A DNA stretch of 64,000 nucleotides. Origin: Pyropia yezoensis. Its lineage: Eukaryota > Rhodophyta > Bangiophyceae > Bangiales > Bangiaceae. The position numbers and the translations under genes were made by a program. A model generated the notes under the pieces. The model was not told where the DNA came from. It saw only the letters and a program-made list of their open reading frames with translations, and searched no databases. The stretch's first letter is position 1. Every line of letters starts with the position of its first letter. The stretch is from the NCBI GenBank assembly GCA_009829735.1, contig CM020620.1, forward strand, positions 12,335,420-12,399,419. Reading direction: 5' to 3'. This document shows, in pieces, positions 10,649 to 36,476 of this stretch.

Positions 10649-10810
10649 TCGTCGGTTTCCGCCCAAATCCCGTCGAGCCCCGGATTCGACGGGATCTCGA
10701 CGGGCTCTCGACGGGCGATTCCAGCCCGTCGAAGGGCCTTTTCGATGGAAGCTCGACGGTGCTCGATGGCGAAAAGCTCGACGGGGCTCGACGGGGACTT
10801 CCCCATCGAG
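10649..10810 (+). repeat. Left terminal inverted repeat with CGACGGG motif array
   Basis: It begins ATCGTCGGTTTCCGCCCAAA and contains about eleven forward or reverse copies of TCGACGGG or TCGATGG within 140 bp. It matches the right end in inverted orientation over the first ~30 bp and over an inner block around CCAGCCCGTCGA. Confidence 0.75.
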
Positions 10811-11416
10811 GAAAACCTGTTGCATTACAGAGACCTATCTCGATATATGTCGCGGGGTCGCGCGAGTTTTCTCGTCCGACACGAGAGATTCCTGCAGATG
10901 ACGAGACATGCCCGTGCAGGCTGCCGTCCCTGTTCATTTTCTACATCGCATCCCTGCCCCCATTACCGCTCCTCCAGGCCAGTTCTGTACACAATGATGC
11001 TCCACGACATCGCGTGCACACGTATGGTTGCAGCTGTTAGGAGCTGAGGTGGACTGGCTGGCGTAGGGGCTCTACATGTGCACGATTACTATTGACGCAA
11101 AGCAGCTCTCAAGAGCCTACACTCCCCTCGCGTCGCTACATCCGCCGATGACCTCTCTGCTCTTTCGCCGATACGCCCCACTGTCCGAGCACTCGACCGG
11201 GATGACCTCGCACATCGCACCGGCGCGGCGGCGGCGGCGCCGCCGCCGTTGAGGGGGCAGCAGCAGCCCTGCCTCAGTCCCTTCTTACGCCTCTCCCCGC
11301 CTCCCCCCCCTCCCCCTCCCCTCTGATGCCCCTCCTCCAACGGAGCTCTGCAGCGGTCGCCCGACTAAGCCCGGGATGAACGGCAGACTGGACCTACCTC
11401 AACCTCACCCTCACCA

Positions 11417-11806
11417 CTAAAGCTCCTCTTCTTCGAGAAGCTGGCCCAGGTGGTCCGCGTACTCGGTGGTCTCAGCAAGGAGATGGAATCCGTCGTCAGC
11501 CACGTCGGGCACCGGCGGCGCGTCGGGCGCGTCAGTGCCAAGGCTCTCCGCGCGAGAATCCGGTCCATCCATCCCGACGGATGCGTCCTGACCCTCCCCG
11601 ATGGCTCTGCCCGCTGCCGCTGCAACACTGTCGCGCATGGTGACACCCCCCCCCTCACCTGCGGGTCCCTCCTCGCCCGCCCCGACGGCGCCGCCTGCTG
11701 CCACTACACGAGAGGCAGAACCCTCGGCATCCGCATCTACCGTGTCGGTGCCGTCGTCAGCAACAAGTCGGACACGCCCGGCATCGTCCCCGTCGCACAG
11801 CTGCAA
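11417..11806 (-). CDS. Acidic transposon ORF directly downstream of the 703-residue ORF, same frame
   Basis: These 129 residues are rich in Asp, Glu, Ala and Gly and end in EEEEL. The frame is the same as that of the ORF at 11819-13930, and only one TAA codon and four further codons separate them. A short intron with acceptor TTGCAG at ~11805, or stop-codon loss in other copies, could fuse it as an acidic tail to the upstream protein. The second copy has a one-base deletion near 21702 that shifts this frame. No homology is recognised. Confidence 0.45.
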   Translation of the reverse strand: MQLCDGDDAGRVRLVADDGTDTVDADAEGSASRVVAAGGAVGAGEEGPAGEGGGVTMRDSVAAAAGRAIGEGQDASVGMDGPDSRAESLGTDAPDAPPVPDVADDGFHLLAETTEYADHLGQLLEEEEL

Positions 11807-11818
11807 TCCATCCGAGGG

Positions 11819-13930
11819 TTAGGTGTGACGGCGTAGAAAGGAGTTCACGATGATCATCTGCTCCCGCCACCCGTCGTACGAGCTGTCATCATTGCCCGAG
11901 CGGCACGTCTTTCGGACGCCGACCACCTTCTCAAACACAGTGCAAGCCCAGTACGCGACCAGGGCCACGTGCCCCATCGATGCATTGATGTACTCTTCCT
12001 CCCAGACAGTCGTTGGCTGAACCACCCGACTTTCCCCGCCATTGCGCATGAAAAGCGCCTTCAATGCCGCCTTAGTCGCTGTCTTGGCCGCGGGGGACTT
12101 GGCATAACGAGCGTCGGCCAACCACGTCTCAGCTTCTGCCGGGGTGAGCGCCGCCACGTTTATGCCAAGCGACTTGAAGTACGCAACCATCGCGACCTTC
12201 TGCAGAGCCTCAAACAAGTGCCCCTTGATGCGGTTCAGCTTCTCAGACACCGGCGCCCGCTTCTCTGCCGCCTCGCCGTCAGCATTGATGGAAATGCGGC
12301 GACTGTCCATGTACTCCTGCGCGCCTGCACGATCAACACCGAGAACGTGTTCCGTAGCCTGGTAGCAGATGTCCAGGACTCGTGCCCCACTGGGCATCAC
12401 GTGAAGGCCAGCCGTCGTAGTGATGACCTCGGTCAGCATCATGTGCTTGGCTACGGTGCGGACCTCAGCGACCTCGACCTGGTTCCGCGTAGCCAGCTCA
12501 AACCGGTCGTCCTCGTCAACCGGGTTTGCCATGCTCTTGAGTACGGACTGAAGTGGGGCAGGCTCCGTCTTCGTCCGCGTCACGACACCGTCATACACAC
12601 CTTGAACGGCACCCTGAAGCTGAACAACCGCATGGGCTGTGCGCTCATTACCAACGCCCTGGGTGTGCAGACTTGTCGAGATGCGACTGACCGTGTCGTA
12701 CACCTCGCCAATCTGCTTTGACAAAGTGGCAATCTGCGTGGACACAGGATAGATGCCTTCAGCAAGCACGCGGCGGAGGTCTGACGCGGTGACCACCGTC
12801 TGCTCGTCGAGGACGGGGACCGCCGTCGGCTCCCCAGAGACCGCAGCTGCCTTCTTTCCTCTCCCAGAGGCAGCGGCCCGACCCTTTGGCGTGCCTTTGC
12901 GCTTGGGGGGAGGGGGTACAGCGCCTGCAGGCTTCAGCGCCGGTACTGTGGGCATTTTCAGTGCCAGCGTGCGTTTGGTACGCGTCTTGGGGGGCGCCTT
13001 CTTGATCGCCTTCGTGGCCTTGGGGGCGTCTCGCCCTGCTGGGGCCTGCGTCAGTGACCGGTCTGCGCCCAGGTTCACATCCTCGGATTTGCGGGCTTCA
13101 AAAGCCAGCACGCGTTGCGTGGTGAGCGCCTGTAGACGGGATTGATGAGGGGGCGTTACAATTGCCAGAGAAGCGTCCTGACGTGGCTTGTCGACGAGAC
13201 CGGGAGGCAAAGTTTGGGTCGTTCGTGCCTCCCCCGACGTGCCCATACCCACAGGCGTTGTGCCTTGGGAGAGGGGGCTTCTATCAGTCTCAAGGCGATG
13301 CGAAAAGTGTCGCGTGACAGACGGAAGAGGCGTCAATGGCAACGCAGGTGCGCTCAACTGCGACCCCGCTACCAGCGGTGTCACCTCCAGCAGCCGGGAG
13401 GGAGCGGCGTCAGTCGCGGCAGCGCGAGTGCCTCCGCCAGAAGCCCCGGCAGTAGGAGATGGCGCCCGCAATGGCCCACCAGGACGAGGAGCAGGCACCC
13501 AGCGGGGAGGTCGCGCTGGCCCTTTACCTCTCGCGATGGCGCCGACGGCAGGCGGCATGGGGCGCAAGGCAGGAACTGCGCCACTCGTTCGGCGGGGTGG
13601 GGGAGCAAGACCACTTTTGGAGGGTAGAGCGCGAGGGGTCGTGCTGCGCCGCGGGGCATATGGCCCACTTGAAGGAGCAGATGCAGCTGGCGATGTCGGT
13701 GAGCTCGGCAACGGCGCTGGAGCGGTGGGCATTCCTGCAAGTGTCCTTGCCGCTCCAGTGTCCGCATCACCGCCACCTGACACGTCCTGGGACGACGGGA
13801 GGTGGCTTACAAGCTGCGACACGCGACGAATTGCCATAGTGACTGTGGCCGGCGCGAGTAGGGAGGGGAGATGCACGGGGAGGAGAGAGAACGGGTAATC
13901 GGCGGCACCACGGAGCCACGGAACGAACAA
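11819..13930 (-). CDS. Transposon accessory protein of unknown function (703 aa)
   Basis: This is the intact version of the ORF. The first ~300 residues are Pro/Ala/Ser-rich and look disordered. A basic segment follows (KKAPPKTRTKRTLALK, then KRKGTPKGRAAASGRGKK), of the kind used for nuclear entry or DNA contact. The last ~330 residues look folded, with long helices and a conserved-looking end (GHVALVAYWACTVFEKVVG). The gene diverges from the transposase, from which about 2 kb of repeat-rich DNA separates it. A TnpA-like end-binding role would fit the composition and context, but nothing in the sequence proves it. In the second copy single-base deletions break the frame. Confidence 0.7.
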   Translation of the reverse strand: MFVPWLRGAADYPFSLLPVHLPSLLAPATVTMAIRRVSQLVSHLPSSQDVSGGGDADTGAARTLAGMPTAPAPLPSSPTSPAASAPSSGPYAPRRSTTPRALPSKSGLAPPPRRTSGAVPALRPMPPAVGAIARGKGPARPPRWVPAPRPGGPLRAPSPTAGASGGGTRAAATDAAPSRLLEVTPLVAGSQLSAPALPLTPLPSVTRHFSHRLETDRSPLSQGTTPVGMGTSGEARTTQTLPPGLVDKPRQDASLAIVTPPHQSRLQALTTQRVLAFEARKSEDVNLGADRSLTQAPAGRDAPKATKAIKKAPPKTRTKRTLALKMPTVPALKPAGAVPPPPKRKGTPKGRAAASGRGKKAAAVSGEPTAVPVLDEQTVVTASDLRRVLAEGIYPVSTQIATLSKQIGEVYDTVSRISTSLHTQGVGNERTAHAVVQLQGAVQGVYDGVVTRTKTEPAPLQSVLKSMANPVDEDDRFELATRNQVEVAEVRTVAKHMMLTEVITTTAGLHVMPSGARVLDICYQATEHVLGVDRAGAQEYMDSRRISINADGEAAEKRAPVSEKLNRIKGHLFEALQKVAMVAYFKSLGINVAALTPAEAETWLADARYAKSPAAKTATKAALKALFMRNGGESRVVQPTTVWEEEYINASMGHVALVAYWACTVFEKVVGVRKTCRSGNDDSSYDGWREQMIIVNSFLRRHT

Positions 13931-15964
13931 AGAGAGCAGTGAGGATGGTGGTGTGAGCTGCGCTGCCCCGTGATGCCCACGCTCACAATCGCCATTCAGC
14001 TCTTCTAAAGCACGTGATCAAGCCACATACCTTCAGAGGACGCGACGCACGAGGCGCCTGCGGTGGTGCATGTCGTGCCAGAGCTCGACAGATCCACTAA
14101 GGGAACCAGAGGGGCCTGTACAATTCAAAGAAGAGCTTTCGTGACCACAGGTGCATGTGAGAGGACAGGAGTGGGCCATGTGGGGAGATCCCATTCAACC
14201 GACGGACGGCGACACAGTAGCGGCAGGCGGCACAGTAGCAGACGGCGACACAGTAGCGCAACGCGGCATTGTAGCGGGCAAAAGCAGCAGTGAGACGGCG
14301 AGTCGTGGCCTGAGACGTGTGCAACCCCATCACACCTGCCGCGTGCGCAACCGCAGGTGCCCCGACCCCTCGAACCACCACAGAATCGCCAGTAAAAGCT
14401 CCAGGCAGAGCTCCAAGGAACAGAAACCATGGGCCACAGGCGAGGAGGGCGGGCACAGTGGTCGGCCAGCTACCTGGGGCCCCACAACGTACCAACACCG
14501 TGCACCTACCGCAACGGGCCAAAGCTTCTGCGGGAGAGCGGGGCATCCCAAGTGTCAGTGCCAGCAAAAGCGGGGCACCCAACAGCCACGAAGTACGGCG
14601 ACAACGTCAGGGACAGGCAAGGCGGTGCGAGAGGGTGAGCGGATCGCCACTTTGCCCAGCCACTACCATTCAAGGACAGTATTGCAGTTGGGCCCGGTCA
14701 ATGCGATGTGAAAGTACGAGAATTGGCGTTCACATTACCACCTTCCGGTCGTTCCATTGGCGTACACGTCACGATCCTTACACAATAAGCTCAATATAAC
14801 AAATATTGATCCACGTTGTTGAGAAGTTGGCAAGAACTGCGTCCCGCAACTCTATTTCACCAGATCGTTTGGCTTGCATCTACGATATTGTTGCCCGCGT
14901 ACCTCGTGACCCGGCGGAGTCGACTGGTGGACCGTCTGTGGTCCTCGACGGGCCCCGACGGGGCTCGATGGGACCCGGCGACGAGGAGCACGGCCTGAGC
15001 ACCTGGTCCAGAGCTGTCCGGGTAGTTGGCGGGCCTCGTCGGGCCTCGTCGGGCATGGACGGGGCTCGACGGGGCTCGATGGCTCCCACCGAGGAGGATC
15101 GCGGCCCATGCCATTGGGGTAGCGCTCAACGGCGGGTTATCCGGCCATGGAGGGTCCCGACGGCCCGCCGTTGGGACCCGTGGGGGGTCTCGACGGGTCG
15201 CAGCTGGGACCCTGGGAGGGTCTCCACGGATTGCAGCTGGGCTGAATGGGACGCTCACGATCTCGCGGACGAGGAGGGTAGCCTGAAGCACTGTTACACT
15301 CCGAGTCCCCTTCGCGATGCCATGCATTTTTGTACGCTTCGATTTTCGAGTTAGAGGGTACGTGACATTGAGAGCCTGCGATGGAAGGCAGAGGAAGGTC
15401 GGGGAGCCTGTGGGCGTCTGTGGCATCTGCTCAGGGACCGGTTGCTGCACTTGTGGCGGAGGTTGCGAGCTCTGTGTGTGGCAGTGCGGCCAGCTCCCCT
15501 TGCGCAATCGTTTGCGCCCTGTACCTCGAGCGTGCGCCTGACGCGCGCGGTGTGACGTGCGTGGCTTGGCACTGTGTTGAGTTTTTGGGTGGCTGCTGCC
15601 CTGGATACTTTCTTGCGATTTTCTTTTATTGATAAGCAGCTTGGTGCGGCGCCTGGGCCGCGGGTGGCAGTCGCGACCAAGACCTGCAGAGTTCTTCGCT
15701 CCTCACTTGCGGCCGACTACTGCCTGAGGCCGCAGCAGCCAGGGGATGCCGTCAATGAGGTACGTGCGTCTGATTCACTTTGTGCGGTCTGTCCTGACGG
15801 GCTCCCCTTATGTGGGGACGTCTGCCTGTGTGCGTGTGCGAGTTAGCGGGAGACAGCAGACGTTCATATGGTGGTTGCTGACCATGTTGCTCCTCGTACA
15901 AGGAATGCGTTTATGGCTGCATGGCGTGTCGCTCATGGTTTGCTGTGACAGTGCGCATCTCAAG
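13931..15964. other. Region between the divergent transposon genes
   Basis: It holds a short tandem repeat at about 14207-14280 (unit near CGGCGACACAGTAGC, four to five copies) and, at 14937-15240, a cluster of CGACGGG/CGATGGG motifs like those in the element's ends. ORFs here are short, overlap in several frames and show no protein-like pattern. Promoters for both genes should lie here. The second copy is 24033-26066. Confidence 0.6.
14937..15240. repeat. Internal cluster of end-type CGACGGG motifs
   Basis: Repeated CTCGACGGG, CCCGACGGGG, CTCGATGGG and CTCGTCGGG words resemble those in both terminal repeats. They sit between the start of the minus-strand ORF and the transposase start. The second copy is 25039-25342. 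Confidence 0.7.
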
Positions 15965-18900
15965 ATGGAGCGCCGTCAGAAGGCTCTTGTCTGCTGCTTC
16001 TGTGGGTTTGAGGCGCGCAGTCGGAACGGGCTCGTGCTTCACCAAAAAGCCATCCACAAGAAGCAAGGTGGAAATGGTATTCCACCTTTGAAGAAGGCAC
16101 GCCTGCACGGCACTTTCGAGGACGACCAAGGACGCCTGGGGTCGCTCCGTCGTCCTGCGCGGGCTGTGCCTGCAGCCAATGGCAGTGGCCGCGAAGCGGA
16201 AGCTGGTGGTAGGCTCGTGCGCGTGCCTCCTCCTGGTGCCGGTTTACGTGGCGAGCGCAATGTACCTACAGCGCAGGGGGCTCCTCGGTCGTCACTCCGC
16301 CCCGACGACAGCGGCAGTTACGATGAAGCTGTATGTAAGGAGCTTCACGCGCTCATGGCGATGACGGGTGTGAATCTGAATGACGAGGACGGCATTAACC
16401 CCACCACAGACCGCCAACCGGGCCACTGTCGGGACTTTGACTACCAGACGCTGGCAACTCGAGCGCGACTCCTCTATGAGGTTTTGGACGACGCAGCCTG
16501 CTCCGTGCCGATCCTGGAGAGGCGGAGGAACAATCGACCGGGCCAGTTCAACACAAAGCGCCTGAAAGCATTGCAGCAGTTTGTGCTTGGCGTCGGTGGA
16601 GCGGGTTTGTCAAGGCGCGAGCAACGGCTGTTGTACAACTTCTTGAGCATCTGGGATGACCACGGCGACTTGTGCCCCATGGACGTCGCAGATGAATTTT
16701 CCCTCCACGCCGTATTTCCCTCGGCCTCCGCCTTCGTTAATGCACTGCGCAACGACATTGATGATGCGGCTCTGGATGGTGGGAGGAGGAAGGTGTGCAT
16801 TAAGGAGGGCGGCATCGACTACGAGGCCTATTTTCGCCCTGTACTGGAGTTGGTTATGAAGCTGCTTCGCCGCAGTAGTAAGCGGTACTCCCTGTCGAGC
16901 GGGAAGGACGGGCCAGCCCCACCGACAGATCGCCGGGAGAGGCCGATGGACGGCGATGCTTTCCGGTTGTGCGAGCAGGAGGTGATTGAGGCGAATGGAC
17001 TTCATGCATTCGTGCTTGGGCTGCACCTATACAGTGACGGCAGCAGACTGTCTTGGTCGGGAGGTATGTTGGTCTGTCGGATGGTCGAACGGGTTTCTCA
17101 CGCACGCGCTTCGTTCTCTCTTCTATCCGTCAGCGCGCTTGACAAATTCTCTTGAGAGCGCTTCTGACGCTTACCTATCTCGCAGTTTTGTGTGCTGGTC
17201 GATGTCGCTCAACGTCCACAACCCTCTTGTCTACAACCGCCTCAACTGCACATTAGCCCACAAGCTGTAACCTGTACGCATCAGGGTCGTCAACGACGTG
17301 TCGCTGGCAGTCACCTGGATGACGGTCGCGTACATCCCCATTGTGCGCAAGCAGACGGAGACGGCCGCAGACGACCGCTCACGCTTACGACGATGTGGAA
17401 TCCTGCAGCGCGTGCTATATACGTGCATGCGCACGGCGATCGCGGCGAGCCACGTTGGTGCCGAAGTTCGTGTGGGTGACCGGACGATGACGGCGTTTCC
17501 ACGCGTGCTGCTGTATGTCTGCGACCAACCGGAGGAGCGCGCAGTGCTGTGCTTCAAAGCTGGGAAGTGCCAGCGGCCCTGCTCCCAGTGCGATGTGAAA
17601 GTGGAAGTCTCTGGCGTCTCCGAGGCTCTCAATGCCAGAGAGCGTGACGTGGTCGCCATGCTGGAACGACAGCTCAAGGTATCCAACCTTCGAGAGCTCA
17701 ACGTTAACAAGCATAAGCGAGAGAGCCTGGAGGCAGAGCACAGTCTGACCGGTTTTGTACCGGCATTGGCGGGAATGGCTGGCCTGTCTACCTCTCCGTA
17801 CCTTCTCTACAAGATGGTCGGATTCGACGCCCTACACGTACGTCTCGTTTTTGCTCTCTGCTGTCGACAACTGGTCCATCCTTGCTGAGTGTTCCACGGC
17901 TCGGTGGTCTTGCGTGAAGCGGGTGGTCGATGGCATAAGGAGCATGGCGCTGACGCTCGGGGTTGATCTCTGTCGCTCTCTGTCGCTCACCACGTGAAGT
18001 GCTTTTTGTGTGTGTGCCCGTCGGCGTCATCCCTTTCTCACATCAGATACTGGACCTTGGAGTCACGAGGATGCTGATTCAGAAGCTCGTGGAGGTATTT
18101 CCGCGCATGTGTCGTCGTGACGGGGCCCTCGCCGGAAGTGACGCTGCCACGCGCCGCATTACAAACTCAAGGCTCGTACATCTGGGACGTCGCAGTACTG
18201 CGTGCAAGCTTCCGCCCGGGTATGTTGGTGCACTGTGCTTTTCAGTGCATGCGAGTTACATTCTGCATCCTGCGCCCACGCTCTCGCTGCAGGAGGTCGT
18301 CTTGTCCTGGTGGGCCGATCTCTTACGACGCTATCTCTGCTTATGCGTTTACTTGCTTCTGTTACATGTTTGGCTGCTGGACTCAATGACTTGTCGTGCT
18401 TGCCCACTCAGCTACGTCATCAAGAGTGACGAGACGCAGTCCATCTTCACGGGCAAGCACCAAAGAGACGGTGTGTCAACCATGGCCTTCATTATGGCGG
18501 GCGTGTGGCGGCCCAAGAGTGGGAATGGGCCGCATTTTGGGCCATTGGATGAGACAGCGGCTGGTATCGGCCCAGTAAGGGACGGTGCAAGTGGCAGCGA
18601 TACCGCGGGCGAAAACAACCTGCACGTTCCGGCTCACAGCAGCGGCCGTCCTGCAAGCGGAGATGACCAGCCTGCGCCAGTGGGCGGTGGTGGCGACGAG
18701 TCCGGGAGACAGAACAATGCTACCACTTCCGCTCCTGTCATTGAGGAGGCCAACGAGGACGCGGCTGTCAACAACACGGTTCTTGTGCTGGCAAAGGAGT
18801 ACGACTGGTCGGCATATCGTGCGGTATGGGGAGACACCCCGGTGGACGAGGCTGTCACTGGCATGTTTGCTGAGTTTGCCGTGTTGCACGCGCAGCTGCG

Positions 18901-19941
18901 TGGGTCCATTCGCTCCACGGCCCCCCGCCCATTGACCCTGGAAGCCGGTAGGAGTGTCGCGGATCGGGCGGAGCGGTTTGTTCTCAAGTACGTGACTCCC
19001 ATACTTGGGCAGCAGCACTCTACGAAGGTGCATAAGCTCATGTGCCACGTGATGGACGCGATAAGGATGCATGGGAACATCGTGAACGGGAATGCCGGTG
19101 ACAATGAAAGCCAGCACAAAGACGACAAGCCGTACTACGCTAGAACCAGCAAGGACATCGAGGACTTCACGCGCCAGCTCGTCGTGCAGGCGCACGGAGC
19201 ACGCGCGATTCAGCAGCGCATCACTGACGGCGACGAGGAGGCGGAGGTGCTCCAAGCGGAGGAGGAAGACCGGGGAGACAGCGCTGGCGACGACGACGAA
19301 GAGAGTGACGACCAGGGGGCGGCGACACGGGACAATCCTCCCCGTGCTTGTCGTCGCCCAAGTGCTCATCACCTACCGCTTGTTCAACTGTCGCACCTGA
19401 TGCTCGCACCAGGCTTGGACGGCGTGGACGTGGCTATCGGTCTGGAACCCGATGAGCGAGCTCGCGTCGCGTCGCGGGTGCCGTTCGAAGCACGCTTCGA
19501 CGACGGCACCACTCAGCCGCAGTTGCTCTACGGCGCGCAGAGCTTCCGCGGAAGCCCCGTGGTACGACTCAGTGCTTTACGAGCCGTCTGACGACAGCTC
19601 TCGAGTGTCGGTAGGGGAGGTGCGGGCGATTTTGCGGCTACAGGAGGGCGACGTTGTTGTGATTGCGGACATGGAGGTGGTCGAGCCCGAGCCCAACTGT
19701 CCACTGGCGGCACGCGGCTGCACGCGCCTGGCGTGGCATGTGCCACAAGGTCAGTCGGACGTATGCCTTCGCGCCAGTGCCTCTGCAATCGGTCCCGTCG
19801 CGTGCTGCACGTGGTGCCTGACTTTGGAGACCTTGCCCAGCGGCATGGATTTGTCGCCGAGCCGGCTGCATTGACAGCACCAAGGGAGGAGCGCCTGGCA
19901 ATGCGATACTTCATGAACGATTTCTATGTATGGGGCCCGTG
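15965..19941 (+). CDS. Plavaka/KDZ-like transposase, first copy (C-terminus frameshifted)
   Basis: The start chosen is the ATG at 15965, which puts a C2H2 finger (C-x2-C-x12-H-x4-H) at residues ~11-32, as is usual for Plavaka proteins. Exons: 15965-17063 (donor GTATGT), an unresolved part at 17186-17300, about 17285-17837 (donor GTACGT), 18047-18219, and 18412 onward. The splices give FDALH+ILDLGVTRM and LPPG+YVIKSDETQ. Family-like features are YSDGSRLS, then SLNVHNPL, then VAYIPIVRK, then FPRVLLYVCDQPEE followed by a CxxxCxxC knuckle. These follow the order of KDZ/Plavaka transposases (SD-x-T, 'N-x-hydrophobic', 'D-x-P-E'). An in-frame TAA at about 17268 lies in the unresolved part and may be intronic or a real nonsense codon. 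Extra bases from 19557 on break the end in this copy; it is intact in the second. Confidence 0.7.
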
Positions 19942-20039
19942 AACAACTGCTGGCTTGTCCATACTTTAACGGCCGGTCTTCGCCACGCAGACGCCGCGAC
20001 ATCGGACGGTGCCAGCATCCCTGCTCCGTCGGCGATCCC

Positions 20040-20560: not shown

Positions 20561-20563
20561 AGC

Positions 20564-21063
20564 NNNNNNNNNNNNNNNNNNNNNNNNNNNNNNNNNNNNN
20601 NNNNNNNNNNNNNNNNNNNNNNNNNNNNNNNNNNNNNNNNNNNNNNNNNNNNNNNNNNNNNNNNNNNNNNNNNNNNNNNNNNNNNNNNNNNNNNNNNNNN
20701 NNNNNNNNNNNNNNNNNNNNNNNNNNNNNNNNNNNNNNNNNNNNNNNNNNNNNNNNNNNNNNNNNNNNNNNNNNNNNNNNNNNNNNNNNNNNNNNNNNNN
20801 NNNNNNNNNNNNNNNNNNNNNNNNNNNNNNNNNNNNNNNNNNNNNNNNNNNNNNNNNNNNNNNNNNNNNNNNNNNNNNNNNNNNNNNNNNNNNNNNNNNN
20901 NNNNNNNNNNNNNNNNNNNNNNNNNNNNNNNNNNNNNNNNNNNNNNNNNNNNNNNNNNNNNNNNNNNNNNNNNNNNNNNNNNNNNNNNNNNNNNNNNNNN
21001 NNNNNNNNNNNNNNNNNNNNNNNNNNNNNNNNNNNNNNNNNNNNNNNNNNNNNNNNNNNNNNN
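20564..21063. other. Assembly gap of exactly 500 N
   Basis: The round length suggests a placeholder. The sequence on its left ends, and the sequence on its right begins, inside the same 9.6-kb repeat. Confidence 0.98.
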
Positions 21064-21922: not shown

Positions 21923-24032
21923 TTAGGTGTGACGGCGTAGAAAGGAGTTCACGATGATCATCTGCTCCCGCCACCCGTCGTACGAGCTGTCATCATTGCC
22001 CGAGCGGCACGTCTTTCGGACGCCGACCACCTTCTCAAACACAGTGCAAGCCCAGTACGCGACCAGGGCCACGTGCCCCATCGATGCATTGATGTACTCT
22101 TCCTCCCAGACAGTCGTTGGCTGAACCACCCGACTTTCCCCGCCATTGCGCATGAAAAGCGCCTTCAATGCCGCCTTAGTCGCTGTCTTGGCCGCGGGGG
22201 ACTTGGCATAACGAGCGTCGGCCAACCACGTCTCAGCTTCTGCCGGGGTGAGCGCCGCCACGTTTATGCCAAGCGACTTGAAGTACGCAACCATCGCGAC
22301 CTTCTGCAGAGCCTCAAACAAGTGCCCCTTGATGCGGTTCAGCTTCTCAGACACCGGCGCCCGCTTCTCTGCCGCCTCGCCGTCAGCATTGATGGAAATG
22401 CGGCGACTGTCCATGTACTCCTGCGCGCCTGCACGATCAACACCGAGAACGTGTTCCGTAGCCTGGTAGCAGATGTCCAGGACTCGTGCCCCACTGGGCA
22501 TCACGTGAAGGCCAGCCGTCGTAGTGATGACCTCGGTCAGCATCATGTGCTTGGCTACGGTGCGGACCTCAGCGACCTCGACCTGGTTCCGCGTAGCCAG
22601 CTCAAACCGGTCGTCCTCGTCAACCGGGTTTGCCATGCTCTTGAGTACGGACTGAAGTGGGGCAGGCTCCGTCTTCGTCCGCGTCACGACACCGTCATAC
22701 ACACCTTGAACGGCACCCTGAAGCTGAACAACCGCATGGGCTGTGCGCTCATTACCAACGCCCTGGGTGTGCAGACTTGTCGAGATGCGACTGACCGTGT
22801 CGTACACCTCGCCAATCTGCTTTGACAAAGTGGCAATCTGCGTGGACACAGGATAGATGCCTTCAGCAAGCACGCGGCGGAGGTCTGACGCGGTGACCAC
22901 CGTCTGCTCGTCGAGGACGGGGACCGCCGTCGGCTCCCCAGAGACCGCAGCTGCCTTCTTTCCTCTCCCAGAGGCAGCGGCCCGACCCTTTGGCGTGCCT
23001 TTGCGCTTGGGGGGAGGGGGTACAGCGCCTGCAGGCTTCAGCGCCGGTACTGTGGGCATTTTCAGTGCCAGCGTGCGTTTGGTACGCGTCTTGGGGGCGC
23101 CTTCTTGATCGCCTTCGTGGCCTTGGGGGCGTCTCGCCCTGCTGGGGCCTGCGTCAGTGACCGGTCTGCGCCCAGGTTCACATCCTCGGATTTGCGGGCT
23201 TCAAAAGCCAGCACGCGTTGCGTGGTGAGCGCCTGTAGACGGGATTGATGAGGGGGCGTTACAATTGCCAGAGAAGCGTCCTGACGTGGCTTGTCGACGA
23301 GACCGGGAGGCAAAGTTTGGGTCGTTCGTGCCTCCCCGACGTGCCCATACCCACAGGCGTTGTGCCTTGGGAGAGGGGGCTTCTATCAGTCTCAAGGCGA
23401 TGCGAAAAGTGTCGCGTGACAGACGGAAGAGGCGTCAATGGCAACGCAGGTGCGCTCAACTGCGACCCCGCTACCAGCGGTGTCACCTCCAGCAGCCGGG
23501 AGGGAGCGGCGTCAGTCGCGGCAGCGCGAGTGCCTCCGCCAGAAGCCCCGGCAGTAGGAGATGGCGCCCGCAATGGCCCACCAGGACGAGGAGCAGGCAC
23601 CCAGCGGGGAGGTCGCGCTGGCCCTTTACCTCTCGCGATGGCGCCGACGGCAGGCGGCATGGGGCGCAAGGCAGGAACTGCGCCACTCGTTCGGCGGGGT
23701 GGGGGAGCAAGACCACTTTTGGAGGGTAGAGCGCGAGGGGTCGTGCTGCGCCGCGGGGCATATGGCCCACTTGAAGGAGCAGATGCAGCTGGCGATGTCG
23801 GTGAGCTCGGCAACGGCGCTGGAGCGGTGGGCATTCCTGCAAGTGTCCTTGCCGCTCCAGTGTCCGCATCACCGCCACCTGACACGTCCTGGGACGACGG
23901 GAGGTGGCTTACAAGCTGCGACACGCGACGAATTGCCATAGTGACTGTGGCCGGCGCGAGTAGGGAGGGGAGATGCACGGGGAGGAGAGAGAACGGGTAA
24001 TCGGCGGCACCACGGAGCCACGGAACGAACAA
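21923..24032 (-). pseudogene. Second copy of the 703-residue accessory ORF, broken by two single-base losses
   Basis: Compared with 11819-13930, one G is missing from a G run near 23094 and one C near 23334, which splits the frame into pieces 21923-23059 and 23259-24032. Both breaks lie within 2.3 kb of the contig start. They are more likely sequence errors than biological decay. Confidence 0.75.
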
Positions 24033-26066
24033 AGAGAGCAGTGAGGATGGTGGTGTGAGCTGCGCTGCCCCGTGATGCCCACGCTCACAATCGCCATTCA
24101 GCTCTTCTAAAGCACGTGATCAAGCCACATACCTTCAGAGGACGCGACGCACGAGGCGCCTGCGGTGGTGCATGTCGTGCCAGAGCTCGACAGATCCACT
24201 AAGGGAACCAGAGGGGCCTGTACAATTCAAAGAAGAGCTTTCGTGACCACAGGTGCATGTGAGAGGACAGGAGTGGGCCATGTGGGGAGATCCCATTCAA
24301 CCGACGGACGGCGACACAGTAGCGGCAGGCGGCACAGTAGCAGACGGCGACACAGTAGCGCAACGCGGCATTGTAGCGGGCAAAAGCAGCAGTGAGACGG
24401 CGAGTCGTGGCCTGAGACGTGTGCAACCCCATCACACCTGCCGCGTGCGCAACCGCAGGTGCCCCGACCCCTCGAACCACCACAGAATCGCCAGTAAAAG
24501 CTCCAGGCAGAGCTCCAAGGAACAGAAACCATGGGCCACAGGCGAGGAGGGCGGGCACAGTGGTCGGCCAGCTACCTGGGGCCCCACAACGTACCAACAC
24601 CGTGCACCTACCGCAACGGGCCAAAGCTTCTGCGGGAGAGCGGGGCATCCCAAGTGTCAGTGCCAGCAAAAGCGGGGCACCCAACAGCCACGAAGTACGG
24701 CGACAACGTCAGGGACAGGCAAGGCGGTGCGAGAGGGTGAGCGGATCGCCACTTTGCCCAGCCACTACCATTCAAGGACAGTATTGCAGTTGGGCCCGGT
24801 CAATGCGATGTGAAAGTACGAGAATTGGCGTTCACATTACCACCTTCCGGTCGTTCCATTGGCGTACACGTCACGATCCTTACACAATAAGCTCAATATA
24901 ACAAATATTGATCCACGTTGTTGAGAAGTTGGCAAGAACTGCGTCCCGCAACTCTATTTCACCAGATCGTTTGGCTTGCATCTACGATATTGTTGCCCGC
25001 GTACCTCGTGACCCGGCGGAGTCGACTGGTGGACCGTCTGTGGTCCTCGACGGGCCCCGACGGGGCTCGATGGGACCCGGCGACGAGGAGCACGGCCTGA
25101 GCACCTGGTCCAGAGCTGTCCGGGTAGTTGGCGGGCCTCGTCGGGCCTCGTCGGGCATGGACGGGGCTCGACGGGGCTCGATGGCTCCCACCGAGGAGGA
25201 TCGCGGCCCATGCCATTGGGGTAGCGCTCAACGGCGGGTTATCCGGCCATGGAGGGTCCCGACGGCCCGCCGTTGGGACCCGTGGGGGGTCTCGACGGGT
25301 CGCAGCTGGGACCCTGGGAGGGTCTCCACGGATTGCAGCTGGGCTGAATGGGACGCTCACGATCTCGCGGACGAGGAGGGTAGCCTGAAGCACTGTTACA
25401 CTCCGAGTCCCCTTCGCGATGCCATGCATTTTTGTACGCTTCGATTTTCGAGTTAGAGGGTACGTGACATTGAGAGCCTGCGATGGAAGGCAGAGGAAGG
25501 TCGGGGAGCCTGTGGGCGTCTGTGGCATCTGCTCAGGGACCGGTTGCTGCACTTGTGGCGGAGGTTGCGAGCTCTGTGTGTGGCAGTGCGGCCAGCTCCC
25601 CTTGCGCAATCGTTTGCGCCCTGTACCTCGAGCGTGCGCCTGACGCGCGCGGTGTGACGTGCGTGGCTTGGCACTGTGTTGAGTTTTTGGGTGGCTGCTG
25701 CCCTGGATACTTTCTTGCGATTTTCTTTTATTGATAAGCAGCTTGGTGCGGCGCCTGGGCCGCGGGTGGCAGTCGCGACCAAGACCTGCAGAGTTCTTCG
25801 CTCCTCACTTGCGGCCGACTACTGCCTGAGGCCGCAGCAGCCAGGGGATGCCGTCAATGAGGTACGTGCGTCTGATTCACTTTGTGCGGTCTGTCCTGAC
25901 GGGCTCCCCTTATGTGGGGACGTCTGCCTGTGTGCGTGTGCGAGTTAGCGGGAGACAGCAGACGTTCATATGGTGGTTGCTGACCATGTTGCTCCTCGTA
26001 CAAGGAATGCGTTTATGGCTGCATGGCGTGTCGCTCATGGTTTGCTGTGACAGTGCGCATCTCAAG
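24033..26066. other. Second copy of the region between divergent transposon genes
   Basis: Identical to 13931-15964, with the short tandem repeat at about 24309-24382 and the CGACGGG cluster at 25039-25342. No gene is seen. Confidence 0.6.
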
Positions 26067-29000
26067 ATGGAGCGCCGTCAGAAGGCTCTTGTCTGCTGCT
26101 TCTGTGGGTTTGAGGCGCGCAGTCGGAACGGGCTCGTGCTTCACCAAAAAGCCATCCACAAGAAGCAAGGTGGAAATGGTATTCCACCTTTGAAGAAGGC
26201 ACGCCTGCACGGCACTTTCGAGGACGACCAAGGACGCCTGGGGTCGCTCCGTCGTCCTGCGCGGGCTGTGCCTGCAGCCAATGGCAGTGGCCGCGAAGCG
26301 GAAGCTGGTGGTAGGCTCGTGCGCGTGCCTCCTCCTGGTGCCGGTTTACGTGGCGAGCGCAATGTACCTACAGCGCAGGGGGCTCCTCGGTCGTCACTCC
26401 GCCCCGACGACAGCGGCAGTTACGATGAAGCTGTATGTAAGGAGCTTCACGCGCTCATGGCGATGACGGGTGTGAATCTGAATGACGAGGACGGCATTAA
26501 CCCCACCACAGACCGCCAACCGGGCCACTGTCGGGACTTTGACTACCAGACGCTGGCAACTCGAGCGCGACTCCTCTATGAGGTTTTGGACGACGCAGCC
26601 TGCTCCGTGCCGATCCTGGAGAGGCGGAGGAACAATCGACCGGGCCAGTTCAACACAAAGCGCCTGAAAGCATTGCAGCAGTTTGTGCTTGGCGTCGGTG
26701 GAGCGGGTTTGTCAAGGCGCGAGCAACGGCTGTTGTACAACTTCTTGAGCATCTGGGATGACCACGGCGACTTGTGCCCCATGGACGTCGCAGATGAATT
26801 TTCCCTCCACGCCGTATTTCCCTCGGCCTCCGCCTTCGTTAATGCACTGCGCAACGACATTGATGATGCGGCTCTGGATGGTGGGAGGAGGAAGGTGTGC
26901 ATTAAGGAGGGCGGCATCGACTACGAGGCCTATTTTCGCCCTGTACTGGAGTTGGTTATGAAGCTGCTTCGCCGCAGTAGTAAGCGGTACTCCCTGTCGA
27001 GCGGGAAGGACGGGCCAGCCCCACCGACAGATCGCCGGGAGAGGCCGATGGACGGCGATGCTTTCCGGTTGTGCGAGCAGGAGGTGATTGAGGCGAATGG
27101 ACTTCATGCATTCGTGCTTGGGCTGCACCTATACAGTGACGGCAGCAGACTGTCTTGGTCGGGAGGTATGTTGGTCTGTCGGATGGTCGAACGGGTTTCT
27201 CACGCACGCGCTTCGTTCTCTCTTCTATCCGTCAGCGCGCTTGACAAATTCTCTTGAGAGCGCTTCTGACGCTTACCTATCTCGCAGTTTTGTGTGCTGG
27301 TCGATGTCGCTCAACGTCCACAACCCTCTTGTCTACAACCGCCTCAACTGCACATTAGCCCACAAGCTGTAACCTGTACGCATCAGGGTCGTCAACGACG
27401 TGTCGCTGGCAGTCACCTGGATGACGGTCGCGTACATCCCCATTGTGCGCAAGCAGACGGAGACGGCCGCAGACGACCGCTCACGCTTACGACGATGTGG
27501 AATCCTGCAGCGCGTGCTATATACGTGCATGCGCACGGCGATCGCGGCGAGCCACGTTGGTGCCGAAGTTCGTGTGGGTGACCGGACGATGACGGCGTTT
27601 CCACGCGTGCTGCTGTATGTCTGCGACCAACCGGAGGAGCGCGCAGTGCTGTGCTTCAAAGCTGGGAAGTGCCAGCGGCCCTGCTCCCAGTGCGATGTGA
27701 AAGTGGAAGTCTCTGGCGTCTCCGAGGCTCTCAATGCCAGAGAGCGTGACGTGGTCGCCATGCTGGAACGACAGCTCAAGGTATCCAACCTTCGAGAGCT
27801 CAACGTTAACAAGCATAAGCGAGAGAGCCTGGAGGCAGAGCACAGTCTGACCGGTTTTGTACCGGCATTGGCGGGAATGGCTGGCCTGTCTACCTCTCCG
27901 TACCTTCTCTACAAGATGGTCGGATTCGACGCCCTACACGTACGTCTCGTTTTTGCTCTCTGCTGTCGACAACTGGTCCATCCTTGCTGAGTGTTCCACG
28001 GCTCGGTGGTCTTGCGTGAAGCGGGTGGTCGATGGCATAAGGAGCATGGCGCTGACGCTCGGGGTTGATCTCTGTCGCTCTCTGTCGCTCACCACGTGAA
28101 GTGCTTTTTGTGTGTGTGCCCGTCGGCGTCATCCCTTTCTCACATCAGATACTGGACCTTGGAGTCACGAGGATGCTGATTCAGAAGCTCGTGGAGGTAT
28201 TTCCGCGCATGTGTCGTCGTGACGGGGCCCTCGCCGGAAGTGACGCTGCCACGCGCCGCATTACAAACTCAAGGCTCGTACATCTGGGACGTCGCAGTAC
28301 TGCGTGCAAGCTTCCGCCCGGGTATGTTGGTGCACTGTGCTTTTCAGTGCATGCGAGTTACATTCTGCATCCTGCGCCCACGCTCTCGCTGCAGGAGGTC
28401 GTCTTGTCCTGGTGGGCCGATCTCTTACGACGCTATCTCTGCTTATGCGTTTACTTGCTTCTGTTACATGTTTGGCTGCTGGACTCAATGACTTGTCGTG
28501 CTTGCCCACTCAGCTACGTCATCAAGAGTGACGAGACGCAGTCCATCTTCACGGGCAAGCACCAAAGAGACGGTGTGTCAACCATGGCCTTCATTATGGC
28601 GGGCGTGTGGCGGCCCAAGAGTGGGAATGGGCCGCATTTTGGGCCATTGGATGAGACAGCGGCTGGTATCGGCCCAGTAAGGGACGGTGCAAGTGGCAGC
28701 GATACCGCGGGCGAAAACAACCTGCACGTTCCGGCTCACAGCAGCGGCCGTCCTGCAAGCGGAGATGACCAGCCTGCGCCAGTGGGCGGTGGTGGCGACG
28801 AGTCCGGGAGACAGAACAATGCTACCACTTCCGCTCCTGTCATTGAGGAGGCCAACGAGGACGCGGCTGTCAACAACACGGTTCTTGTGCTGGCAAAGGA
28901 GTACGACTGGTCGGCATATCGTGCGGTATGGGGAGACACCCCGGTGGACGAGGCTGTCACTGGCATGTTTGCTGAGTTTGCCGTGTTGCACGCGCAGCTG

Positions 29001-30041
29001 CGTGGGTCCATTCGCTCCACGGCCCCCCGCCCATTGACCCTGGAAGCCGGTAGGAGTGTCGCGGATCGGGCGGAGCGGTTTGTTCTCAAGTACGTGACTC
29101 CCATACTTGGGCAGCAGCACTCTACGAAGGTGCATAAGCTCATGTGCCACGTGATGGACGCGATAAGGATGCATGGGAACATCGTGAACGGGAATGCCGG
29201 TGACAATGAAAGCCAGCACAAAGACGACAAGCCGTACTACGCTAGAACCAGCAAGGACATCGAGGACTTCACGCGCCAGCTCGTCGTGCAGGCGCACGGA
29301 GCACGCGCGATTCAGCAGCGCATCACTGACGGCGACGAGGAGGCGGAGGTGCTCCAAGCGGAGGAGGAAGACCGGGGAGACAGCGCTGGCGACGACGACG
29401 AAGAGAGTGACGACCAGGGGGCGGCGACACGGGACAATCCTCCCCGTGCTTGTCGTCGCCCAAGTGCTCATCACCTACCGCTTGTTCAACTGTCGCACCT
29501 GATGCTCGCACCAGGCTTGGACGGCGTGGACGTGGCTATCGGTCTGGAACCCGATGAGCGAGCTCGCGTCGCGTCGCGGGTGCCGTTCGAAGCACGCTTC
29601 GACGACGGCACCACTCAGCCGCAGTTGCTCTACGGCGCGCAGAGCTTCCGCGGAAGCCCGTGGTACGACTCAGTGCTTTACGAGCCGTCTGACGACAGCT
29701 CTCGAGTGTCGGTAGGGGAGGTGCGGGCGATTTTGCGGCTACAGGAGGGCGACGTTGTTGTGATTGCGGACATGGAGGTGGTCGAGCCCGAGCCCAACTG
29801 TCCACTGGCGGCACGCGGCTGCACGCGCCTGGCGTGGCATGTGCCACAAGGTCAGTCGGACGTATGCCTTCGCGCAGTGCCTCTGCAATCGGTCCGTCGC
29901 GTGCTGCACGTGGTGCCTGACTTTGGAGACCTTGCCCAGCGGCATGGATTTGTCGCCGAGCCGGCTGCATTGACAGCACCAAGGGAGGAGCGCCTGGCAA
30001 TGCGATACTTCATGAACGATTTCTATGTATGGGGCCCGTGA
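26067..30041 (+). CDS. Plavaka/KDZ-like transposase, second copy (C-terminus intact)
   Basis: Exons correspond to 26067-27165, an unresolved part at 27288-27402, about 27387-27939, 28149-28321 and 28514-30041. The last exon runs uninterrupted to the stop after YVWGP, whereas the first copy is shifted. This exon holds an acidic Glu/Asp segment (~29330-29415) and a C-terminal domain with GEVRAILRLQEGDVVVIADM. The N-terminal C2H2 finger and the core motifs are as in the first copy. The enzyme would cut and paste the element through the CGACGGG-rich ends. Whether it is active depends on the in-frame TAA near 27370, which is spliced out or a real stop. Confidence 0.75.
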
Positions 30042-30660
30042 ACAACTGCTGGCTTGTCCATACTTTAACGGCCGGTCTTCGCCACGCAGACGCCGCGACA
30101 TCGGACGGTGCCAGCATCCCTGCTCCGTCGGCGATCCACGCCGACGCTGCCGGCAACCCACGCCGACGCTGCCGGCCACCCCTGCTCCGCCGGCCACCCA
30201 CCCACGCCGGCGCAGCCGGCCATCGTTGCGGCACCAGCACTCCACAACGACGCTGCCGGCAACCTCTGCTCCGCCGGCCACCCACCCACGCCGGCTCAGC
30301 CGGCCACCGTTGCGGCGCCGGGCATCCGCGACGACGCTGCCGGCCACCTGACGCTTCCGGCAACCACTGCTCCGCCGGCCACCCTCCTGCGCCGGTGCTG
30401 CCGGCCACTCTTGCTGCATCGGCTGCCATCACCGACGCTGCAGGCCATCCACGTCGACACTGCCGGCCACCAAGACCTGCTCCGCTGGCTACCCACGGCG
30501 TGTTCCCCGCGGATTCGGCACGCCGCCGCAGTGCCATTTGGTACATATCACGCCGTCGGCGGGCTTTTTAACGCCCCGTCACCCGCCGACGACGTGGCTA
30601 CCTCGACGCCGCTGCCCGCTCCGACGCCGCCTCCCGCGCCAACCCCTGAGTCGCCGCAGC

Positions 30661-31239
30661 GCTCGTGCCTGCCCTCGCCACCTGCTCGCGGCAGGCCGCC
30701 GAGCGCCCCCCACCTGCCACCTTCTACCTACCACCGGCGGCGCCACCCGCTACTACGCCGCCGCCCTACCGCCGGCGGCGCCACCCACTACTACGCCGCC
30801 GCCCTACCGCCAGCGGCGCCACCCACTACTACGCCGCCGCCCTACCACCGGCGGCACCACCACCTACGACACCGCCGCCCTACCACCAGCGGCGCCACCA
30901 CCTACTAGGCCGCCGCCCTACCGCCGGCGGCGCCACCGGCTAGCACGCCGCCGCCCTACCACCGGCCGCGCCACCCGCTACTGGCCCACTTCCCGACCGG
31001 CTACCTGCTGGTCGACAGATCGCTCGTGGCGGGCAGCCCACCGTGCCGCCCGTTGCAGGTCGTGCTGCCTCTGCAAGCCACTCTTCCGGACGCAGCACAG
31101 GGTCACGGACACGACGTCCGCTGCCTGCAGCTTGTCGCGGCGTGGCAGCCGCGTGGCAGCGGCGGCGGTACCGCGCGCCACCGGCTGGTGTTACGTCTGA
31201 CGCACTGAACCTGGCGGCCGCAGCCCACCACACGCCGCA
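30661..31239. repeat. Low-complexity tandem repeats upstream of the SET gene
   Basis: At about 30740-30975 units of roughly 45 bp containing CGCCGCCCTACCGCC and GGCGCCACCCACTACTACG repeat five to six times. Frames give Pro/Thr/Tyr/Arg repeats. The remainder to 31239 has no recognisable gene. Confidence 0.65.
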
Positions 31240-32163
31240 ATGCCTCTGACATTGCTTGCGTGGGGGCCGCTGCTGCTCATGCCGGCACACACGCACATAT
31301 CGGGGGCCATTGTCAAGGAGCTGATGAGTGTGGAGGGCGTGGTCGATGCCTGCGGGGGGCTGAACCTGTGCACCACGACTGTGCATGAGTGGCCGGACGC
31401 CGTCATCCAGATTCTACGTGCTGAGAGGGATGTCCTTGGCTTGACGGGCCAGGTGCGGCTGCTTGAAGCCGACGCAGAGGCGAGCGAGACGGTGGTGCAG
31501 CCGTCGACCGTTCGTCATGCCGGTTTGGGTGTCTTCGCTACTCGCGACTTTGAGGTCGGCCACCACTTCCTCCCGTTTTTTGGGCAACTCGTATACCACG
31601 ACTGGCAGGTGCCGGGACGCTCCTTGAGGGAGCGCTCCTACGCACACCAGTACGGGCTGGGCAAGCTGGACATGTCTCTGGCAACGACTGCCAGGAACTG
31701 GATGTACACCGCCCTGCAGCTGCGAACTCATACGTCGATGTGGCCGGTGGGGTCGAGTGGTTCTTCATCCTCTATGGTGCCGGCGGCCCTGAGCGCCCGC
31801 GAGGACGCGGCCACCACCGCCAAGCCGGTCTGGGTCGCCCCATCTGAGTTTTGTGCGGGTGGCCGGGTCAATGACCATCGCCCGGACTTGGTGGCAAATG
31901 CCAAGTATGTGCAGCTGGTGGACCCTGTGATGAACATTGGACAGCTGATATTGCCCAACTGCGCCTTTCTGGAGGTGACGCGGAAGATCTACGCTGGGCA
32001 AGAGGTGCTTGCGAAGTATGGACGGCGCTATCCGCTGTCGTCAGTCGCTTCTCTGCCGCAGCCAGCTCGTGCGCCGGCGAACGGAGGGCCGGCGAGCGGG
32101 GGGGAGGAGGGGGGGGCGGGTGCGGGCGGGGGGGAGGGGGATGTTATTATGATAGATGATTAG
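31240..32163 (+). CDS. SET-domain protein (putative lysine methyltransferase) inside the transposon
   Basis: This is a single-exon frame of 307 residues. Residues ~88-110 read STVRHAGLGVFATRDFEVG, matching the SET N-motif in which a G-x-G-V/L-F-A-T segment binds S-adenosylmethionine. Residues ~207-225 contain GGRVNDHRPDLVANAKYV, in the place of the usual N-H/D-x-x-x-P/A-N motif, and residues ~250-262 contain AGQEVLAKYGRRY, the C-motif E-x-L-x-x-Y-G before the product-release Tyr. The spacing between motifs suits a short SET enzyme with an insert. The tail is a Gly/Glu run. Proteins of this class methylate lysines, often on histones. The gene lies 1.2 kb after the transposase, on the same strand and inside the inverted ends, which makes it a passenger or partner gene of the element. 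The target is unknown. Confidence 0.75.
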   Translation: MPLTLLAWGPLLLMPAHTHISGAIVKELMSVEGVVDACGGLNLCTTTVHEWPDAVIQILRAERDVLGLTGQVRLLEADAEASETVVQPSTVRHAGLGVFATRDFEVGHHFLPFFGQLVYHDWQVPGRSLRERSYAHQYGLGKLDMSLATTARNWMYTALQLRTHTSMWPVGSSGSSSSMVPAALSAREDAATTAKPVWVAPSEFCAGGRVNDHRPDLVANAKYVQLVDPVMNIGQLILPNCAFLEVTRKIYAGQEVLAKYGRRYPLSSVASLPQPARAPANGGPASGGEEGGAGAGGGEGDVIMIDD

Positions 32164-32250
32164 ATGGAGAGCTGTCGATGGGAGTGTGTGAGAGAGAAGA
32201 CGGGTCTTTGATGTGCGTGTATTGCATGTATCACACAGCTCCCGTAGTAT

Positions 32251-32956
32251 GTGACAATGGCCTGGTCGTTAAGCTCACCAACACTCCATGTCTTTCCCTC
32301 TGCTGATGCCCTCGCGTCAGAGACGTACAATGCGCGGCGTCACGGAGAAGAGCACATGGACCAGAGCGCCCATCCCCCGATCCATTCCACGTCAGCGGCA
32401 TGGACGACAGCGACAGAAGTAACACGGACGGCGACCGACACGGCAGTAGCTGCGGCCACAGACGCGGAGGAAGCTACAGGAACGGCGCCGCCGTCGTCGT
32501 TGCAGACGCTGGTGGCACGCGTGTGCTGATACTGCAACAGAGGCGGCGACAGAGGCGACAGCATCACATGCTGCCGCAGAGGCGGCCGCCTCTGCGGCAG
32601 CTTCGGTAGACGCAAAGGCAGCGGCGCTAGAGGCGGCCGAGGCGGAGGAGGAGGCGGCCGCAGATGCGGCAGAGGTGTGGGACGCCTCGACGGCTGTAGC
32701 TGCACATACCGCAGCAGCTGCTGCAGACTCGGCGGCGGCAGCTGCAGACGCGGCGGAAGTCGCGGCGGCGGCAGCTGCAGGCGCGACGGGGCACTTCATT
32801 GCCTCGACGATGTGCACTCCGTCGGGGGGTGGGAGCGGGCTCCTGGTGTGGTGGGAGGGAGGGGTGTCGCTGACGCACACCAGATCCGCTGCTCTGCTCC
32901 TGTCCTTCGCCAGAACTGACAGTATTTCCATATCCAATGAGAGTGTCTTCTCATGA
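32251..32956 (+). CDS. Ala/Glu/Thr-rich helical frame, possibly frameshifted, function unknown
   Basis: A first frame (32251-32529) ends in an Ala/Thr/Glu-rich segment. A second (about 32531-32956) carries the same composition on, with Ala-rich helices including AAEAEEEAAADAAEVWD, and ends at a TGA. One frame change near 32530 separates them. The opposite strand is also open (32392-33510) and Ala/Ser-rich, so the strand is not proven. It lies just inside the right inverted repeat. Confidence 0.3.
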
Positions 32957-33039
32957 TCTGGTCGCGTGTACCTCTGCTTGTCCCGAGCTGACCTCGTGGG
33001 GAGCGAGACGAAGTCCATCGAACACTCAGTTGGCTGCGG

Positions 33040-33211
33040 GTCCGAGTCCCGTCGAGAGCCCCGTCGAATGGGGGCTTCGATGGGATTCTCGACGGGCTGG
33101 AAACGCCCATCGAAGGCCTGTCGAAACCGGCCTTCGATGGGCCGACGGGCCTCGGTGGGCTTCGACGGGCTCTCGATGGGATTCGGGCGGAAACCGACGA
33201 TATCTACGCAG
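33040..33211 (-). repeat. Right terminal inverted repeat with CGACGGG motif array
   Basis: It ends GGGCGGAAACCGACGAT, the reverse complement of the left start, and holds about ten CGACGGG/CGATGGG words in both directions, including the shared block around CGACGGGCTGGAAACGCCC. Confidence 0.75.

Positions 33212-36436: not shown

Positions 36437-36476
<40 letters not shown>

Follow-up and report, generated by a model that had tools for sequence, protein, structure and literature searches.

The DNA analysed here is a 64,000-nucleotide stretch of the red alga Pyropia yezoensis (assembly GCA_009829735.1, contig CM020620.1, C3:12335420-12399419), hereafter the window, and it was compared with a genome of 107.5 Mb in 11 contigs, three of which measure 43.6, 34.3, and 29.4 Mb. 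These three large contigs contain 12 matches to phycobilisome-linker genes (PF00427), in agreement with a red-algal genome. Positions 10648-33201 of the window are one DNA transposon of the Plavaka type, with matched ends, a transposase bearing a C2H2 finger, a divergent accessory gene (open reading frame 1, ORF1), and an open gene for a predicted SET methyltransferase. The initial annotation of this locus, made from the letters alone, had placed the right end at 33211, which is corrected here to 33201.

Ends and target site of the element

The left terminal inverted repeat, which begins 5'-ATCGTCGGTTTCCGCCC... and carries subterminal TCGAYGGG repeats, occupies 10648..10810 on the plus strand, and the right terminal inverted repeat with its own subterminal TCGAYGGG repeats occupies 33040..33201 on the minus strand, the inner border of each being approximate. 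Between the sequence from 10648 onward and the reverse complement of the sequence from 33201 backward, 28 of the outer 30 bases match, and the same ends are found at three full copies of the element, the left ends of the two other copies being 98–99% identical to that of the window. Deeper in, the two ends correspond only loosely, agreeing in 122 of the 283 columns of the full alignment. Local alignment of the terminal repeats gives a score of 52, where the best of 290 random windows from the same 64 kb reached 38; together with the outer bases, this confirms the matching inverted ends of the initial annotation. The motif TCGAYGGG occurs 31 times in the 64 kb, and 16 of these occurrences fall inside the two 250-bp ends, eight in each. 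Related ends are also present in two sequences of ∼1.9 kb (L055, C2:25706801-25709101; L056, C2:22857201-22859501), which have no space for a transposase and are non-autonomous derivatives.

The termini of the element can be written (AT)CGTCGGTTTCC, so that the ends read ATCGTC..GACGAT. By eye, AT stands at both ends in 3/3 full copies; beyond it, one copy has two more bases (GG) in common between its flanks, and the flanks of the other two copies differ. AT may be the outermost base pair of the terminal repeat or else a 2-bp target duplication, and duplication is plausible because fungal Plavaka elements give target duplications of 2 or 3 bp, according to the sections of PMC12730594 that deal with them. 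A search with the two flanks of the window copy joined together found no empty site, the only matches in the genome being the flanks themselves.

Assembled and real length

As assembled, the element measures 22.6 kb, and this length had been accepted in the initial annotation. However, the segment 10957-20563 is repeated as 21064-30660 over 9.6 kb with 0 substitutions and only 10 one-base insertions or deletions, the extra base lying on the side of the first copy in 10/10 cases, and a gap of exactly 500 N (20564..21063) separates the two copies. The window copy without the doubled part measures ∼12,457 bp, and the full copies on two other chromosomes (lengths by arithmetic) measure ∼12,452 bp (C1:24804475-24816926) and ∼13,474 bp (C2:5146368-5159841), the latter with ∼1 kb extra between the SET gene and the right end. 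Because these full copies are of such a size, the assembled 22.6 kb is very probably an unmerged contig overlap, with a single set of transposase frames appearing twice; the segment 21064..30660 is then an assembled duplicate outside the real length of the element, which is ∼12.46 kb. A recent tandem duplication of the middle, giving a true length of ∼22.5 kb, is what the sequence says as assembled, but it is very unlikely in view of the missing substitutions, the single direction of all ten single-base differences, the 500-N junction, and the two shorter full copies, and it was rejected in favor of an assembly artefact. Two other loci, L060 and L061, also contain 500 N, and other elements of this genome may therefore be doubled at gaps. 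The window itself has a second assembly gap of 230 N at 62867-63096.

Transposase, ORF1, and family assignment

The transposase is read in three open frames on the plus strand. Frame a (15728..17155, 475 codons) contains a C2H2-like zinc finger at 15992..16057 (plus strand), frame b (17271..17888) contains the Plavaka domain match, which was recorded on the identical duplicate at 27373-27990, and frame c (17954..19591, 545 codons) encodes the C-terminal part and is extended to 661 codons in the assembled duplicate (28056-30041) owing to a one-base insertion or deletion. The match to PF18759 (Plavaka) has an expectation value (E) of 1.2e-7 and 31.7 bits against a cut-off of 26.3, covering profile positions 154-271 of 325 only, and with the finger it bears out the zinc-finger transposase of the initial annotation. 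The divergent accessory frame named there is likewise present as ORF1 (11819..14017, minus strand, 732 codons), without a Pfam family over cut-off. Among the compared loci, ORF1 has homologues of 50% identity in a sister element that lacks SET and of 25% in a B-type element, and it is therefore part of the core transposon. Between the transposase and the SET gene lies a block of 38-bp tandem repeats (30680..31036).

The earlier label “Plavaka/KDZ-like” can be kept in its first half, on the strength of the PF18759 match, and not in its second. The KDZ transposase domain (PF18758) has no match in six scanned proteins of the window element, and none of the five PF18758 matches of the genome lies within it, on which grounds KDZ membership of the window element was rejected. 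The same six proteins gave no Pfam match to a TET/JBP dioxygenase. An 8-bp target duplication, which the relevant sections of PMC12730594 give for the KDZ elements Zisupton and Dileera, was not seen, no 8-mer being common to the flanks at the ends of the three full copies by eye. The Plavaka transposase is described in the same sections as having no sequence similarity to KDZ and as assigned to the CMCT group. The termini of the window element fit neither TGT..ACA (PlavakaA) nor CATCA..TGATG (PlavakaB), and the element is therefore not assignable to either of the fungal subgroups described in those sections.

The SET gene as integral cargo

The SET gene moves together with the element, has been conserved along with it, and keeps a fixed position behind the transposase. 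The left 252 bp of the element, used as a query, found 15 places in the genome, four of them at 94–100% identity; three of these four also have the right end, and the SET gene is held in 3/3, at 97–100% identity and with no internal stop in any of the three. The fourth close left-end place (C1:28116693) has no right end listed, and its likeness to the others ends after ∼0.9 kb. This search for copies by the left end, which the initial annotation had itself proposed, thus supports SET as real cargo of a Plavaka element. Copies lacking SET, which had been named as evidence to the contrary, do not occur among the full copies and appear only at a distance, in a sister clade described below; a single-copy host gene, named likewise, does not agree with a genome in which at least 74 SET rows were found.

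Of these 74 rows, 11 (from 10 loci, since one broken gene accounts for two) have a Plavaka match no more than 12 kb away, compared with a random mean of 2.5 and a maximum of 8 in 1000 draws in which the clustering of repeats was not preserved. The Plavaka rows used for this proximity numbered 149, of which 148 came from one Plavaka search of the genome, whose listing gives a lower bound. The SET row at C2:9190242 owes its place in this count to a distant Plavaka match 7.6 kb away and on the opposite strand, and may be a chance neighbor. Five loci have SET on the same strand as the Plavaka domain and at an almost fixed distance from it, 3214 bp in three of them and 3180 bp in the others; a sixth locus has 5389 bp. 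In a tree of 45 Plavaka transposase segments (mostly the best of the matches listed), where a SET label means a SET match within 12 kb, the window element belongs to a clade of 10 rows (support 99/96), seven of which are labelled SET-bearing. The unlabelled members differ in kind: some 19 kb downstream of L073, and in the same orientation, there is a matching SET together with a right end; L090 has stop codons; and at the expected SET place of L071 a 1.2-kb sample is other sequence, unmatched in a sister with an identical transposase segment, so that the absence of SET at L071 says little. The tree of SET sequences mirrors the branching of the transposases into the window element, L012 with L013, and L014 with L015.

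Some results count against the overall reading of the element. The sister Plavaka clade, whose rows are 65–74% identical over the transposase segment, is SET-bearing in 0/16 rows (none within 12 kb), and SET is therefore not needed for transposition in general. One element of this clade, L065 (C2:30226001-30236000), was read through to its right end; its right end is related to that of the window element, its gene order is the same, and its ORF1 and transposase are similar (50%, and 71% over the Plavaka segment, respectively), but no SET match lies between its transposase and its right end. On the transposase tree the SET label needs five changes and not one (at least four are forced by well-supported branches; shuffled labels need 8.3), and the congruence of the two trees is carried by three lineages only, for which chance gives one in three. 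On the supporting side, the ratios of nonsynonymous to synonymous substitution rates (dN/dS) are 0.19–0.39 in eight between-family SET comparisons, where the ratios are rough because the synonymous rate (dS 1.06–2.4) is near saturation and the method simple, and 0.57–2.07 in 11 within-family comparisons, the twelfth (L012 with L013) having no synonymous change. These 20 pairs were chosen from 24 of 30 SET loci, leaving out L020, L021, and L027 with stop codons and L011, L026, and L031 as near-copies. The contrast fits the usual picture of selection along element lineages and drift in copies after insertion.

With high confidence, the SET gene is nonetheless integral cargo of the element, and it looks like a transposon tool and not a trapped host gene because the other full copies and the near relatives carry it. 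That a host gene should have come by chance to lie between two unrelated ends might be suggested by the 50 of 74 SET rows that adjoin neither type of transposase considered below. Yet three copies scattered over the genome that agree in ends and interior, together with a closely similar spacing at two loci of another family, make such an accident barely conceivable, and in our view it is already refuted.

The SET protein

The gene at 31240..32163 (plus strand) is predicted to encode 307 amino acids from its ATG, in a frame open from 31201, and consists of an N-terminal region of ∼80 amino acids followed by the SET motifs GLG, VND...N, and GQEVLAKYG. The family members align over most of the N-terminal region (L037 from column 20), the rows of the alignment having been cut to their matching parts. 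The call of a SET-domain protein in the initial annotation is firm at the level of the family, in which PF00856 is matched by nine of the 11 members chosen (E ≤ 0.1, the lowest value being 8e-7), but the window protein alone stays below the Pfam cut-offs, with E 0.076 for SET and 0.007 for PRDM2_PR. The members are 33–58% identical to the window protein and share 30 invariant columns; GxG, Asn211, Asn220, Glu255, and Tyr260 are invariant in 11/11.

A profile of the 11 members matched solved structures of KMT2A (E 2.4e-4), KMT5A (0.0016), EZH2 chimeras (0.006), and the SET protein of PBCV-1 (0.012). Two features count against an ordinary, active SET enzyme: these profile matches rest mainly on the first SET motif (∼40 positions), and where ordinary SET proteins have the canonical catalytic motif NHS, 10 of the 11 members have ND, so that the predicted activity is not assured. 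A structure model from the single sequence was of no use (mean predicted local distance difference test score, pLDDT, of 34), and scans of viral contigs confirmed no SET relatives there.

SET genes in other elements of the genome

Related SET genes accompany other transposases in the same genome. A second Plavaka branch, represented by L062+L063 (C2:12434001-12450000) and by C1:21255319-21259145, combines a transposase with a related SET that lies on the same side but in the opposite orientation to the transposase; ORF1 was seen in L062+L063, where SET has 43% identity, and the SET of the second locus has a stop. In this branch SET has therefore been either turned round or captured again.

In addition, nine full-length SET rows of 38–40% identity show 95–99.9% DNA likeness over most of the compared flanks and are part of a repeat 8 kb or more in length (L064, L109, and L110), the three compared being ∼97% identical. 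In L109, frames lie at 2125-2871 (plus strand) and 5419-6222 (minus strand), the convergent SET gene being an open frame of 268 codons. The transposase-like frame of L110 matches the Pfam KDZ family below cut-off (E 9.9e-4, 19.3 bits against 26.6), and no Pfam family was matched by the equivalent frames of L109 and L064. When the L109 frame was used as a query, the 85 genome rows obtained included 5/5 KDZ profile matches (three over cut-off), and the frame is thus linked to KDZ through its relatives. Thirteen of the 74 SET rows (12 loci, of which three are broken) have a KDZ-like row no farther than 8 kb away, in each case including a convergent one at 1.7–2.7 kb, whereas random placement gave a mean of 0.8 and a maximum of 5 in 1000 draws. 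Judged by these sequence relationships, KDZ-like transposons appear to be a second transposase group with SET cargo in this genome.

Altogether 24 of the 74 SET rows stand beside a transposase of one or the other type. Among the remaining 50 there are near-identical dispersed copies (L016/L017/L019, L028/L038, and L034/L037), and further mobile carriers are therefore likely; the 10-kb neighborhood of the SET at L111 has no likeness to the window transposase or ORF1, and none worth naming to the KDZ-like protein. In a SET tree of 26 rows, 9/9 Plavaka SETs fall in one clade with L016, L017, and L019, and seven KDZ-linked SETs fall in the other (support 100/100 each).

Proposed role and alternative explanations

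Taken as a whole, the locus can be read as a ∼12.5-kb Plavaka-type (CMCT) transposon with its own, putatively anti-silencing, SET methyltransferase, a reading to which we give an even chance. For the function of SET in itself, anti-silencing is the likeliest of the roles considered, and is put forward tentatively, at slightly less than even confidence. In this mechanism the finger of the transposase, and perhaps ORF1 too, would bind the TCGAYGGG arrays at the ends, and the SET protein would methylate histones on or near the copies of the element. The methylation may then counter host silencing, for example through a mark that blocks methylation of lysine 27 of histone H3 (H3K27), so that the transposase gene would stay expressed. 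The SET cargo would thus be the histone-side counterpart of the TET/JBP enzymes of fungal Plavaka and KDZ elements, for which anti-silencing reasoning of the same kind is given in the corresponding sections of PMC12730594. Histone methylation is plausible as the front line because in the red alga Cyanidioschyzon merolae trimethylated H3K27 (H3K27me3) covers 50% of repetitive elements and is associated with low expression, as reported in the parts of PMC5405695 that concern repeats.

The opposite effect, in which SET lays a repressive mark on the element and so holds copy number and host damage low, would suit the three full copies found for this family and the EZH2 chimeras (E 0.006) and viral PBCV-1 SET (E 0.012) among the profile matches. 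The matches to KMT2A and KMT5A are stronger, however, and on general reasoning such selection is hard to keep up in a sexual host, so that a self-limiting repressor is an unlikely role. SET enzymes with non-histone targets exist, and the protein might methylate the transposase, ORF1, or a repair factor and in this way tune transposition, as the constant place of SET beside the transposase in five loci could suggest; related SETs (35–40% identity) nevertheless accompany the very different KDZ-like transposase, which argues against a partner specific to Plavaka, and we rate this possibility slightly lower still.

A captured SET gene that is merely carried along, of no use to the element, would account for the sister rows that transpose without SET, for the reversed SET of the B-type element, and for the high within-family dN/dS. 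The low between-family dN/dS and the 30 invariant columns speak of long selection, whereas a passenger would decay, and this explanation is improbable to about the same degree as self-repression.

Neighboring features of the window

An inverted repeat with arms of 55 nucleotides, 89% complementary and 43 nucleotides apart, lies at 33554-33706, ∼350 bp to the right of the element, and is perhaps a small separate element. Beyond it, a very G+C-rich open frame of 1682 codons (34053-39101) with several C2H2-like fingers, seen by eye, is probably a host zinc-finger gene beside the transposon. Farther to the right, two direct repeats of ∼190 and 250 bp (97–98% identical), at 42822-43263 and 47536-48451, may be the ends of another mobile element.

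Significance and comparison with known systems

The occurrence of SET genes in KDZ-like as well as Plavaka elements of a single genome is the most interesting of these results. Transposons equipped with chromatin enzymes of their own offer natural experiments on the silencing of genome parasites; fungal TET cargo points to DNA methylation, and SET cargo in the same two groups would point to histone methylation as the front line in a red alga. It may well be, at even odds, that red-algal DNA transposons own a SET family with a common N-terminal region of ∼80 amino acids, that unrelated transposase groups, namely two Plavaka branches and a KDZ-like family, acquired or exchanged it in the manner of fungal TET/JBP, and that silencing is fought on the histone side by element-encoded histone methyltransferases. 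The element family also supplies compact and diverse SET enzymes, and a considerable share of the “SET genes” in a genome of this kind may belong to transposons, as the 24 rows beside a Plavaka or KDZ-like transposase illustrate.

SET cargo, which the initial annotation called new in an algal element, is not new in itself, since SET histone methyltransferases are reported in HarbingerS and MuDR elements of Phytophthora (Kojima and Jurka, 2014, as cited in the sections of PMC12730594 on such cargo). A search of the open-access literature (Repbase Reports, most subscription journals, and bioRxiv lying outside this scope) turned up no account of a Plavaka or KDZ element with SET cargo, nor of such cargo in red algae. 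The oomycete elements resemble the present one, by description only, as DNA transposons with a SET histone methyltransferase gene, and differ in their transposase superfamilies and host group. The Vandal (MuDR) elements of Arabidopsis, whose anti-silencing proteins are mentioned in the same source passages, resemble the role proposed here in that an element-encoded protein regulates the silencing of its own family; their protein is a sequence-specific regulator, whereas a SET enzyme is encoded here.

Also among the closest parallels are the fungal Plavaka (PlavakaB) and KDZ transposons that carry TET/JBP, as set out in the sections of PMC12730594 on these groups (with Iyer et al. cited there). 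In both cases a Plavaka transposase and a chromatin- or DNA-modifying gene lie inside one element, the carriers are Plavaka and KDZ, and related cargo occurs in several superfamilies of one genome. The two systems differ in the cargo (TET/JBP in place of SET), in the host (fungal in place of algal), and in the termini, which are CATCA..TGATG or TGT..ACA in fungal Plavaka elements and ATCGTC..GACGAT in the element of Pyropia yezoensis.

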